Assembly: GCF_007747655.1 (NCBI RefSeq)
Contig: NZ_CP036274.1
Span: 6,076,001-6,140,000 of the forward strand
From: Anatilimnocola aggregata
Lineage (GTDB): Bacteria > Planctomycetota > Planctomycetia > Pirellulales > Pirellulaceae
Reading direction: 5' to 3'
DNA: 64,000 nt
Shown here: positions 1,351 to 48,986 of the stretch, piece after piece
Position numbering within the stretch: position 1 is the first letter of the stretch
How the letters are laid out: each line of letters opens with the position of its first letter
Made by a program: the position numbers and the translations under genes
Notes under the pieces: model-generated
The model's database searches: none
What the model saw: only the letters and a program-made list of their open reading frames with translations
What the model was told of the DNA's origin: nothing

Positions 1351-2078
1351 GTCACAAAATCCTCGCTCAGAATGCTCTCACTTAGTAAGCGATCTATTGT
1401 AGCCAACTGGCAAGATTGTTGGCTGAGTGCAACCAACGCATGCAACGCGAATTGAATAACTTTCCGAATGCGCTGTTGGAGAGCAGTGATTCTCCAGCTG
1501 GCAACGCTAGTTGCCGGATTTGAGCGGCGTGGCTCGCCCGGGCCAAAATAGCACGAAAACTTTCAGCCAAATGTTATTGACAAGTAGTCACGACATAGCA
1601 ATAACTTAACTGGCTGTTTGGCAACCTGGTGGAAGGGGCGTGACTGCGCGGCAAAAACGTTGCGCGTCGTCGCGAGGCATCTGTTCTTGTCATTCGTGGC
1701 AAGCAACGAATCGCCGCGCGTGCGGCACAGAGTTTCATCCATGGGGTTTTTCAACAAACAGGATGAATTCGGAATTGGAAAGTTGGCGCAATTCATTGCT
1801 GTGAAACAGCTTGCTGACAATCTCGCAAAAGGGGGGTGTTGATAAACCTCGTGGTACTACGCCGCGGCTGAATAGCCGACAACAATTGTTCGGCGAGCCC
1901 GACCGCAATCGAGGGGGTGTTCAACAATCGGAGCCATTATTGGGCGGAAAACAGCGTAACTATCGTGTTTCCGCAAGATTTGCTACTAACAATGAGACGG
2001 ATTGTTGAACATTCACGTTTTTTTAGAACGCGTGAGAGCAATTTCCCGAATCCGATTTGAATGCCCGCGGGCGAGGCA
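1351..2078. other. Long intergenic region holding a diverged dihairpin repeat
   Basis: Between the start of the HAD gene and the stop of the UDP-glucuronate decarboxylase gene there are about 730 bases in which no open frame shows a ribosome site or recognisable protein. The right half holds a diverged copy of the dihairpin repeat (1919-2010), a further partial G-run (about 1829-1840) and a short palindrome at 1875-1894 (GCCGACAACAATTGTTCGGC). Confidence 0.6.
1919..2010 (+). repeat. Dihairpin repeat, copy A (diverged)
   Basis: Two 27-nt units, 1919-1945 and 1984-2010, are separated by 38 nt. Each unit has 10-nt arms around a 7-nt loop. Pairing is imperfect here (core AACAAT/ATTGTT kept in the second unit). 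The linker aligns with those of copies B and D through GCGTAAC..TCG.GTTTCCG. A G-run (GGGGGTG) precedes the first unit as in the other copies. Copy A is the most decayed of the four. Confidence 0.7.
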
Positions 2079-5377: not shown

Positions 5378-5519
5378 TTAGCCCGACGCGTCAGCGAGGG
5401 AGAGGTGAATTAAACCGCTGCGACGTTGAGGGCGTTCTTAAATGGATCGAGAGACAAGGAACGAGAGATGTCAGATAGACGCGAAATTGCATTTCACCCT
5501 CGCTAACGCGTCGGGCTAA
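5378..5519. repeat. 142-bp unit bounded by 23-bp inverted repeats (REPIN-like)
   Basis: The left arm at 5378-5400 (TTAGCCCGACGCGTCAGCGA then GGG) is the reverse complement of the right arm at 5497-5519 except for one base. The interior of about 96 bases has no open frame. The unit fills nearly the whole spacer between dapA (stop at 5526) and prs (start at 5369). Two inverted arms around a short interior is the layout of REP doublets; no transposase is nearby. Confidence 0.85.
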
Positions 5520-19917: not shown

Positions 19918-20286
19918 GCACGAGTGGCCAAACGGGAGCGATGAGATTTGCCTGGCAACGTCGCGGCATAAAATGGCCCGCAACATTCCAAAAACCTACT
20001 CTAAACGCTGCTGCCACAAGGGTCAACGTAACGGCTGGCGGGCCTCGTCGCGGGAAACTTGAGCGACCAAGCCGCAACAACCAGCGCGACACCGAATCGC
20101 CCTGCTGCGGCGAAACCGAAGGTACGTCACGAAACTGCAAAAGGGGGGTGTCCAACAAAGCGGGCCTTAGTTGGACAGCACCGAGCGCAACTCTCGGGTT
20201 TCCGGCAGTTTGGTGTCCAACAATCGAGGGCATTGTTGGACGTTTAGGTTGCATTTTCTATGCACAATTGTGCCGCAAGTGCAGCA
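19918..20286. other. Intergenic region containing dihairpin repeat copy B
   Basis: These 369 bases between the dinB-like stop and the hisF start hold copy B of the dihairpin repeat and its G-run at about 20138-20241. No ribosome site or protein-like frame is visible. Confidence 0.6.
20138..20250 (+). repeat. Dihairpin repeat, copy B
   Basis: A leader GCAAAAGGGGGGT (20137-20149) is followed by hairpin 1 at 20150-20176 (GTCCAACAAA with one mismatch to its partner arm), a 38-nt linker, and hairpin 2 at 20215-20241 (GTCCAACAAT, loop CGAGGGC, ATTGTTGGAC, fully paired). The linker differs from that of copy D at only a few positions. The flank beyond GTTTAGG diverges from copies C and D, so this copy is truncated at the dinB-like gene side. 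Confidence 0.85.
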
Positions 20287-31121: not shown

Positions 31122-31580
31122 GGGGGCGAACTCCTACAGCAAACAAACCAACAGCACGATAACTAAGCCCGTCAATATAAAGTGTGCCTGTTTTCGCACA
31201 AGACGCGGAACACCTGGGTTGTGGGCCAGTTTGATGATCCGGCCTGGTCATGTGACGGCTTGCAATCGAATCGGGCCAGCATCCCGAGCAACGGCTACTG
31301 CCCAGAGAAACAGAGGCACCACAACTCAGCACTTCGCCGCGAAATCTCGGCCGCGAAATCTCGCGTTCTAATTTCAGCCTAAATGTTCAACATCGCCCCT
31401 CTTAATTGGACACCCAATCGCAGCTAAACCCGCGAATGGCGCACATCGCTGTTCAATTAACGACCCCTTAATTGAACACCCCCCCTTTTGCGGTTTGCGT
31501 GCCAAACTGCTACACGACGATCGCTGATTGCCGCAGTCGGTCAAATCAGTCCACGACCAACGCCCGCGGCATCCGGGCGA
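31122..31580. other. Intergenic region containing dihairpin repeat copy C
   Basis: These 459 bases between the thioredoxin/TPR gene stop and the aroB-linked gene start are largely filled by copy C of the dihairpin repeat and its flanking homology with copy D (about 31240-31500). No coding frame with a ribosome site is seen. Confidence 0.6.
31240..31500 (-). repeat. Dihairpin repeat, copy C (stem sequence changed, pairing kept)
   Basis: Hairpin units lie at 31385-31411 (GTTCAACATC, loop GCCCCTC, TTAATTGGAC, partly paired) and 31451-31477 (GTTCAATTAA, loop CGACCCC, TTAATTGAAC, fully paired), separated by 39 nt, followed by a C-run (CCCCCCCTTTTGCGG). About 130 bases to the left align with the same flank of copy D, including CACCACAACTCAGC and TTTCAGCCTAAA. 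The second stem differs from other copies at several positions on both arms. Confidence 0.85.
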
Positions 31581-48441: not shown

Positions 48442-48986
48442 CGCACATTCTCCAAGAAAGGGAACCTGTCAAAACCTGAAATCTTAATTATCCGCGGCTA
48501 GCAACGCAAGCTTCGACAGTAATGAGCGCGAGCTAATTTGCTTGGTCCGCCCGATCATGGGACGGCCTGAATTCGAACCAGTTAAGCATCCCAGGCAATC
48601 GCTATCGGTGAGAGCAACAGGATCACCACAACTCAGCCCTTCGCTGCGAAAGCTCGCGGCCTATTTTCAGCCTAAACGTCCAACAATACCCTCGATTGTT
48701 GAACACCAATCTGCCGGAAACCCGAGAGTTGCGCTATCTGCTGTCCAACAATAGGCCCGATTGTTGGACACCCCCCTTTTGCGGTTTGCTCGCCAAAGTG
48801 GCATCCCAAGATCGCTTGCTGCCCAAGTCTCACAAATTGCCTCACTGCCAGCCAATGATCCGCGCCGCAGTTCAGTTCTCACCGCTCGCCTGCCGATGCA
48901 AGTAAGAACCTCTTCTCCTGCCTTCTATTCCCACCTGCTGACACTTCTCTTCGATTTTCCCACCCGTCCTTGCAGACTGTCCCTCT
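48442..48986. other. Divergent intergenic region with dihairpin repeat copy D
   Basis: These 545 bases lie between the small lipoprotein and a kinase gene, transcribed divergently. Copy D of the dihairpin repeat occupies about 48545-48790. Nothing else was recognised, so promoters on either side must sit close to each start. Confidence 0.55.
48545..48790 (-). repeat. Dihairpin repeat, copy D (best preserved)
   Basis: Hairpins at 48678-48704 (GTCCAACAAT, loop ACCCTCG, ATTGTTGAAC, one G-T mismatch) and 48743-48769 (GTCCAACAAT, loop AGGCCCG, ATTGTTGGAC, fully paired) are separated by 38 nt and followed by CCCCCCTTTTGCGG. The left flank (48545-48677) matches copy C over about 130 bases. The linker matches copy B almost base for base in the reverse orientation. 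Confidence 0.9.

Follow-up and report, generated by a model that had tools for sequence, protein, structure and literature searches.

REPINs (Bertels and Rainey 2011, PMC3116915) are doublets of REP sequences that can adopt either a single long hairpin or a two-hairpin "clover" and that are presumed to be moved in trans. The repeats of TIRYT genes (TIRtrons; Di Nocera 2013, PMC3733652) are linked to Y1/HUH transposases, and some of them are self-complementary or double-palindromic, dimeric or carry the G-run motif GGGGWSAS; the same paper mentions flanking repeats for R. baltica as well, and describes CGTC-tagged REPs that are palindromic, mostly dimers and without a dedicated transposase. The GTAG REP palindrome doublets described so far are tied to a Y1 transposase and to a tetranucleotide tag.

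We analyzed a double-hairpin repeat of which four copies, A to D, lie in a window of 64,000 nucleotides of Anatilimnocola aggregata (the whole stretch of DNA under study, positions 6,076,001 to 6,140,000 of contig NZ_CP036274.1). Read in one orientation, the element is made of a head GCAAAAGGGGGGTG, hairpin 1, a spacer of 38-39 nt containing GCGYAACTCTCGGGTTTCC, hairpin 2 and a tail close to ATTTAGGTTGAAA. The features located in the window are as follows.

1897..2033, + strand: copy A, core; units at 1919-1945 and 1984-2010, the second unit decayed (7/10 pairs)
20129..20264, + strand: copy B, core; units at 20150-20176 and 20215-20241
31362..31499, - strand: copy C, core; hairpin 1 at 31451-31477 (10/10 pairs), hairpin 2 at 31385-31411 (6/10)
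48655..48790, - strand: copy D, core; hairpin 1 at 48743-48769, hairpin 2 at 48678-48704
31217..31558, - strand: copy C, long form; outer inverted ends GGTTGTGGGCCAGTTTGA ... TCAAATCAGTCCACGACC, placed by eye
48524..48849, - strand: copy D, long form; degenerate outer inverted ends, placed by eye
1743..1848, + strand: inside-out half copies before copy A; tail-like end at 1743-1766 (GGGGTTTTTCAACAAACAGGATGA) and head-like end at 1824-1848 (CGCAAAAGGGGGGTGTTGATAAACC), by eye

The positions, strands and geometry that an earlier note had read from the letters proved exact, with unit starts at 1919/1984, 20150/20215, 31385/31451 and 48678/48743 and spacers of 38, 38, 39 and 38 nt; a G/C run does lie beside the units, both strands are used, and all four copies are intergenic according to our own codon-usage gene caller. 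The hairpin of two 10-nt arms and a 7-nt loop ascribed to every unit was recovered with at least 9 of 10 pairs, G-U included, in six of the eight units, while A2 (1984-2010) retains 7 pairs and C2 (31385-31411) 6. The extent had been drawn too short, as the core model comprises 136 positions and copies C and D are alike over ~300 nt.

A search of the genome (one contig of 9,007,740 bases) with the DNA of copy D returned 55 matches, reverse shadows included. On the same genome, a covariance model built on 32 copies, the E-values of which are rough, produced 121 matches at E <= 0.01; 23 are reverse-strand shadows, leaving 98 places, with scores of at least 60 bits in 89 of them and below 45 bits in 6. 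The possibility raised in the earlier note that only four copies exist genome-wide is thereby dismissed: the occurrence of four copies in the window by chance is excluded, and these copies are members of a dispersed family. One further place beside copy c7533565 brings the family to at least 99 places, and this count is a lower bound since 150 of 1403 candidates were scored in the model search. This second, weaker element beside c7533565 (L137:456-588, minus) is separated by ~110 nt from its neighbour, and the next closest two places by ~2.5 kb. The two-hairpin span measures 91-93 nt in 72 of 95 copies (exactly 92 in 57), that is, 27-38-27 within 1 nt, and 80-89 or 97-103 nt in the other 23, with an anchor finder that fails on decayed hairpins. 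A strict structure-only scan (9/10 Watson-Crick pairs in both hairpins, gap of 34-44) detected B and D alone in the window and gave no hit over 0.4 Mb of shuffled sequence. Weaker copies escape it, as did A and C and, in a further 0.4 Mb taken from this genome, one known copy.

Copies are distributed along the chromosome much as random points would be (CV 0.92 vs a random mean of 0.98), without regular spacing among the 98 places. Neither half of the genome, divided without reference to the origin, shows a visible bias towards one strand (25+/18- and 31+/24-). Using gene calls from our own crude codon-usage method, we observed no gene overlap longer than 30 nt at any of the 98 places, one of which overlaps a gene by 6 nt; median distances are 94 and 46 nt to stop codons and 225 and 210 nt to starts. 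Both neighbours were called in 84 places, distributed in 48 tandem, 21 divergent and 15 convergent gaps, and occupation of all three kinds indicates that the element is not confined to terminator positions. A single terminator-like site was found near copy D (48643-48660, + strand; chance gives 0.8), and a reading of the hairpins of D as terminators was discarded, none being found there.

Across the 32 copies, 93.1% of the cells of the two local hairpins hold a pair, compared with at most 55.2% in a control where the 3' partners were slid by 1-3 columns. Double-change cells number 38 vs 14.3 in shuffles; pairs changed on both sides, of which there are 6, are not above shuffles (182 of 500 reach 6). 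A larger set of 97 rows was obtained from 118 model matches by removing 21 shadows, with one row contributed by the copy of a related genome described below and three one-hairpin places left out. In this set, 907 of 965 cells are paired for hairpin 1 and 817 of 969 for hairpin 2; long-range pairing reaches 83.3% between arms 1 and 4 and 88.5% between arms 2 and 3. Covariation in hairpin 1 is located at positions 3, 4, 7, 8 and 10, its inner letters swapping between AACAAT/ATTGTT, AATTAA/TTAATT and other types, and entire arms change together with their partners in the GTCCAACAAT, GTTCAATTAAG, GTTGAATAAGTC and GTTGATAAA types. Arms thus exchange their letters wholesale yet stay paired, which is clearest in hairpin 1; this supports selection on the fold itself, as the earlier note had suggested. 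Contrary to the uniform hairpins of that note, the signal is weaker in hairpin 2, where the inner three pairs are often broken.

Each window copy folds better than shuffled sequence, whichever strand is taken (z of -2.7 to -4.8). The predicted fold of B consists of two hairpins, that of A and D is one long hairpin on both strands, and C is predicted to form hairpin 1 alone on the G-run strand and the long fold on the other. In copy c7239972, arm 1 pairs by eye with arm 4 over ~16 pairs with one bulge. A TACTAA subfamily once considered as proof of long-range pairing was dropped after a hand count of pairs. On the G-run strand, G-T pairs exceed A-C mismatches in hairpin 1 (31 vs 16), in hairpin 2 (43 vs 27) and in sum (74 vs 43), an excess which, the cells not being independent, hints that the G-run strand is the folding one.

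Outside the source genome, the covariance model matched one place in a same-genus genome (G001, the genes of which match those of A. aggregata at ~64-89% by blast). This copy, at L068:1524-1616, has both hairpins perfect, a related tail by eye and inner arm letters absent from the copies read in the first genome; it keeps a 27-39-27 geometry with other arm letters, so that the constant geometry reported in the earlier note extends to the one copy found in a relative. No further G001 copy was detected by the strict structure-only scan in 0.8 of 8.9 Mb, a weak scan as indicated by the known copy that it misses in A. aggregata. There was no model match in 18 other relatives, nor in 117 other genomes of the family that partly overlap these 18 (27 candidates scored in each, under stricter filters), and the exact outer-letter pattern was present in 1 of 392 genomes of the phylum, which is the source genome, G001 being outside that draw. 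A geometry search in other organisms, using the GTTCAA form, returned 3 stretches in the genome collection that look unrelated by eye and none in viral contigs; plasmids and phages gave no match at E <= 0.01 in a collection from which records close to the source genome may be absent. The family is thus almost private to one species, with one diverged copy in G001.

In G001 the neighbours of copy C stand side by side, their blast matches separated by ~62 nt vs ~446 nt here (a difference of ~380 nt). This leaves no room for the element, which was therefore gained here or lost there and, given its distribution, gained. The gap of copy D is ~360 nt shorter in G001, and synteny is broken there at copies A and B. 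Conversely, the two proteins neighbouring the G001 copy have no orthologous site among the source-genome loci examined, which yielded one weak partial match (L122, 30% identity).

Like REPINs (PMC3116915), the repeat consists of two palindromic units with a short spacer, exists in many dispersed intergenic copies among which doublets dominate, and can fold in two ways. Unlike them, it has neither a GTAG tag nor a RAYT gene beside any copy, its G-run head and its tail (~TTTAGGTTGAAA) differ from each other, each unit is a nearly perfect palindrome that encloses a loop of 7 nt, its long forms carry outer inverted ends, and its arm letters vary widely. We looked for tags within 14 nt outside each end of 72 copies: GTAG, absent from every head and present at 5 tails, is not conserved, and CGTC occurs outside the stems in neither direction, appearing at the tail (as GACG) in 13 copies if 3 stem letters are counted. 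The CGTC-tagged REPs of PMC3733652 resemble our repeat as palindromes that are mostly dimeric and lack a dedicated transposase, but the CGTC of these 13 of 72 copies is read from the opposite strand, where it runs into the end of the hairpin 2 stem, and is not conserved. Some of the TIR repeats of TIRYT genes (PMC3733652) share with our repeat the palindromes, the doublet form and a G-run motif, but the motif here, GGGGTGTY, misfits GGGGWSAS at position 7.

The genome encodes seven Y1_Tnp loci, the inverted repeats of which differ from the element; no copy was found at any of them within ~1.5 kb on each side, and no transposase gene at the seven loci is flanked by the repeat in inverted orientation as in a TIRtron. 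A direct link to Y1/RAYT genes was accordingly rejected, the repeat being borne by 0 of 7 loci. The best two Y1 (IS200-like) genes are themselves flanked by 48-nt inverted repeats that are double-palindromic by eye (L031:1375-1422/1986-2033 and L032:1375-1422/2005-2052), in the same layout as the TIRtrons of PMC3733652, with sequences unlike the double-hairpin repeat; by eye, double-palindromic repeats thus occur in the source genome around these two genes, as other sequences. At the remaining five Y1 loci, the inverted repeats are different ones. Since membership in the REPINs fails on the tag and on the cognate transposase, we would say that the element works like a REPIN, not that it is one. 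Among the papers listed by literature searches, none dealt with the repeat, and Rfam gave no match in the window at the gathering score, with one sub-threshold match at D (18.3 bits, gathering 40). The view of the earlier note that no named family matches consequently holds for Rfam, but the kind is known, namely the palindrome doublets of the REP, REPIN and TIR type (PMC3116915, PMC3733652).

The reading that we favour, and to which we assign an even chance, is that the family is a non-autonomous mobile palindrome doublet moved in trans by a Y1/HUH-type transposase of the RAYT/TIRYT kind that would recognize a folded single strand. An element of two 27-nt palindromes, set at a fixed distance of 38 nt and headed on the 5' side by a G-run, would have spread between genes through such an enzyme, the class of which is suggested by what has been proposed for REP doublets (REPINs); the cognate enzyme may have been lost or may be encoded elsewhere in the genome. 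We infer transposition as the cause of dispersal, the recognition of a single strand and the enzyme class from the features above, and the Y1 link would be by analogy only. Against this reading stand the lack of any copy at the seven Y1 loci, the missing GTAG or CGTC tag, the failure to recognize a target-site duplication by eye and a core that is far better conserved than its flank. Among the three options offered by the earlier note, a mobile palindrome fits best (dispersed, nearly species-restricted, no room in the gap of C, a composite found four times), a protein-binding array is disfavoured and a structured RNA is possible.

Rearranged copies were also observed. Three of the 98 places carry a single hairpin by eye, which fits the loss of one unit, as if two palindromes had recombined. 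The spacer is in forward orientation in 82 of 98 places and inverted, at <= 2 substitutions, in 2 (c8787446 and c8866320); 14 read neither way at this strict criterion, including two that are inverted by eye (c5909209 and c5724384). Copy A, c2994677, c8138417 and c8928818 share by eye a composite made of a tail end, a head end of GTTGATAAA type and a complete element; that the block recurs four times supports its having been copied whole, and its inside-out order, tail then head, could come from a circular intermediate.

Several other explanations deserve consideration. Bacterial MITEs are short, dispersed and intergenic, and possess terminal inverted repeats, a target-site duplication and a parent transposon. 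The repeat could be a classical MITE of ~330 nt, in which a DDE transposase recognizes the outer inverted ends (GGTAGTGGGCTRATTTGA...) and the double hairpin, carried along as a passenger, was subsequently retained for a different reason. Like MITEs, it is short, dispersed and intergenic; inverted ends are found in the long copies only, and the extra length of C (~380 nt) and D (~360 nt) relative to G001 fits a long form. A profile grown from D extends over ~330 nt in better-kept copies, up to outer ends GGTAGTGGGCTRATTTGA / TCAAATYAGCCCACTACC, around a common core of ~130-150 nt; the outer flanks can be aligned in fewer than half of the copies (left, 26; right, 16), and in 72 copies the columns around the doublet are rich in information from -11 to +17, carry little out to -22 and +35, and almost none beyond. 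Most copies have no recognizable outer ends and the core defines all of them, partly by construction since the model was built on it. A search with the outer ends for an autonomous copy gave, at E <= 1, 21 matches, chance probably accounting for the weakest; of these, L160 and L164 were read. The ends occur there without the core, singly in the first and, in the second, as two inverted copies separated by 716 nt. This L164 segment (L164:1501-2216; G000:C1:4213229-4213944) has 36-nt inverted ends (30/36 alike) matching the outer ends of the repeat and carries two small ORFs of 90 and 97 aa, with no Pfam family over cut-off and no transposase match; it is possibly a mobile cassette. Unlike MITEs, the family showed no parent insertion sequence and no target-site duplication recognizable by eye, and its core is better kept than its ends. 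Protein families PF01797, PF05598 and TIGR02249 were searched genome-wide. Ends such as GTTGAATAAGTC suggested an IS1182-type mover, but the corresponding transposase (DUF772), which is the DDE-type family searched, is absent from the genome and was rejected as the mover. Furthermore, DDE recognition needs no compensatory hairpin arms, and altogether we consider a MITE unlikely. In 15 long copies, core identity is 0.737 vs 0.561 for the right flank and is higher in 101 of 105 pairs, reflecting either selection after insertion or exchange among cores. Such a difference would not be shown by a dead transposon and counts against the mobile doublet favoured above; it leaves room for a domesticated RNA or single-stranded DNA role.

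A structured element domesticated by the host after insertion, acting as RNA or extruded hairpin (e.g. protection of mRNA 3' ends or a site for a hairpin-binding protein), ranks behind the MITE and seems improbable to us. It would account for the conservation of the core over the flanks of the same copies, for the compensatory changes in the arms, for the proximity of copies to stop codons and, with the reserve that cells are not independent, for the G-T excess on the G-run strand. It sits poorly with the 21 of 84 copies in divergent gaps, with an orientation of just 30 vs 18 relative to tandem genes, with hairpins of D that coincide with neither a promoter-like site nor a terminator, and with the absence of an Rfam family and the single copy of G001 in relatives. 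Less probable again would be a module distinct from the REP/RAYT and integron systems, moved by a recombinase or transposase of a novel class that recognizes the shape and spacing of the 10-7-10 double hairpin instead of its letters and can flip or delete the spacer, the ~100 cores being kept by the host after insertion for a role of its own. We are very doubtful that the units are tyrosine recombinase sites, integron attC-like or dif-like. The ends of attC are invariant, RYYYAAC and GTTRRRY, and the four 7-bp arms GTYCAAC/GTTGRAC fit them, with AAC at letters 5-7 of arm 1 in 40 of 72 copies; inverted spacers and one-hairpin copies point the same way, and the fold of one strand matters in both systems. 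Unlike in attC, local pairing of hairpin 1 is the best kept here, the AAC is variable (AAT in 23/72, AAA in 4/72), places are single and dispersed without arrays, and homologous exchange between palindromes explains the rearrangements equally well. No integron integrase exceeded the curated cut-off, and weak matches such as the 12 found were present in 14 of 14 control genomes too. Least probable of all, and highly unlikely, is a sequence-specific protein-binding array of dimer operators or nucleoid sites. The outer six letters of the two 5' arms read GTYCAA in 77 of 96 copies (GTTCAA/GTTCAA in 38, GTCCAA/GTCCAA in 26) and the centre-to-centre distance is 65 bp in most, but whole arms change in some copies and homology reaches beyond the sites. 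The symmetrical variation of the inner arm letters disfavours such an array.

Returning to the mobile doublet, the family is well defined, with neither an associated Y1 transposase nor a tag found and with many wholesale compensatory arm swaps within one genome. It provides the opportunity to ask which enzymes recognizing single strands disperse palindromes that lack a tag, and whether the host comes to benefit from them. A different 26-nt inverted repeat, TTAGCCCGACGCGTCAGCGAGGGAGA, lies in the window at 5378-5403 / 5494-5519 (92% complementary, 90 nt apart) and resembles a member of a further REP-type family; by eye, L160 contains a similar stretch, as does the inverted repeat of L035.
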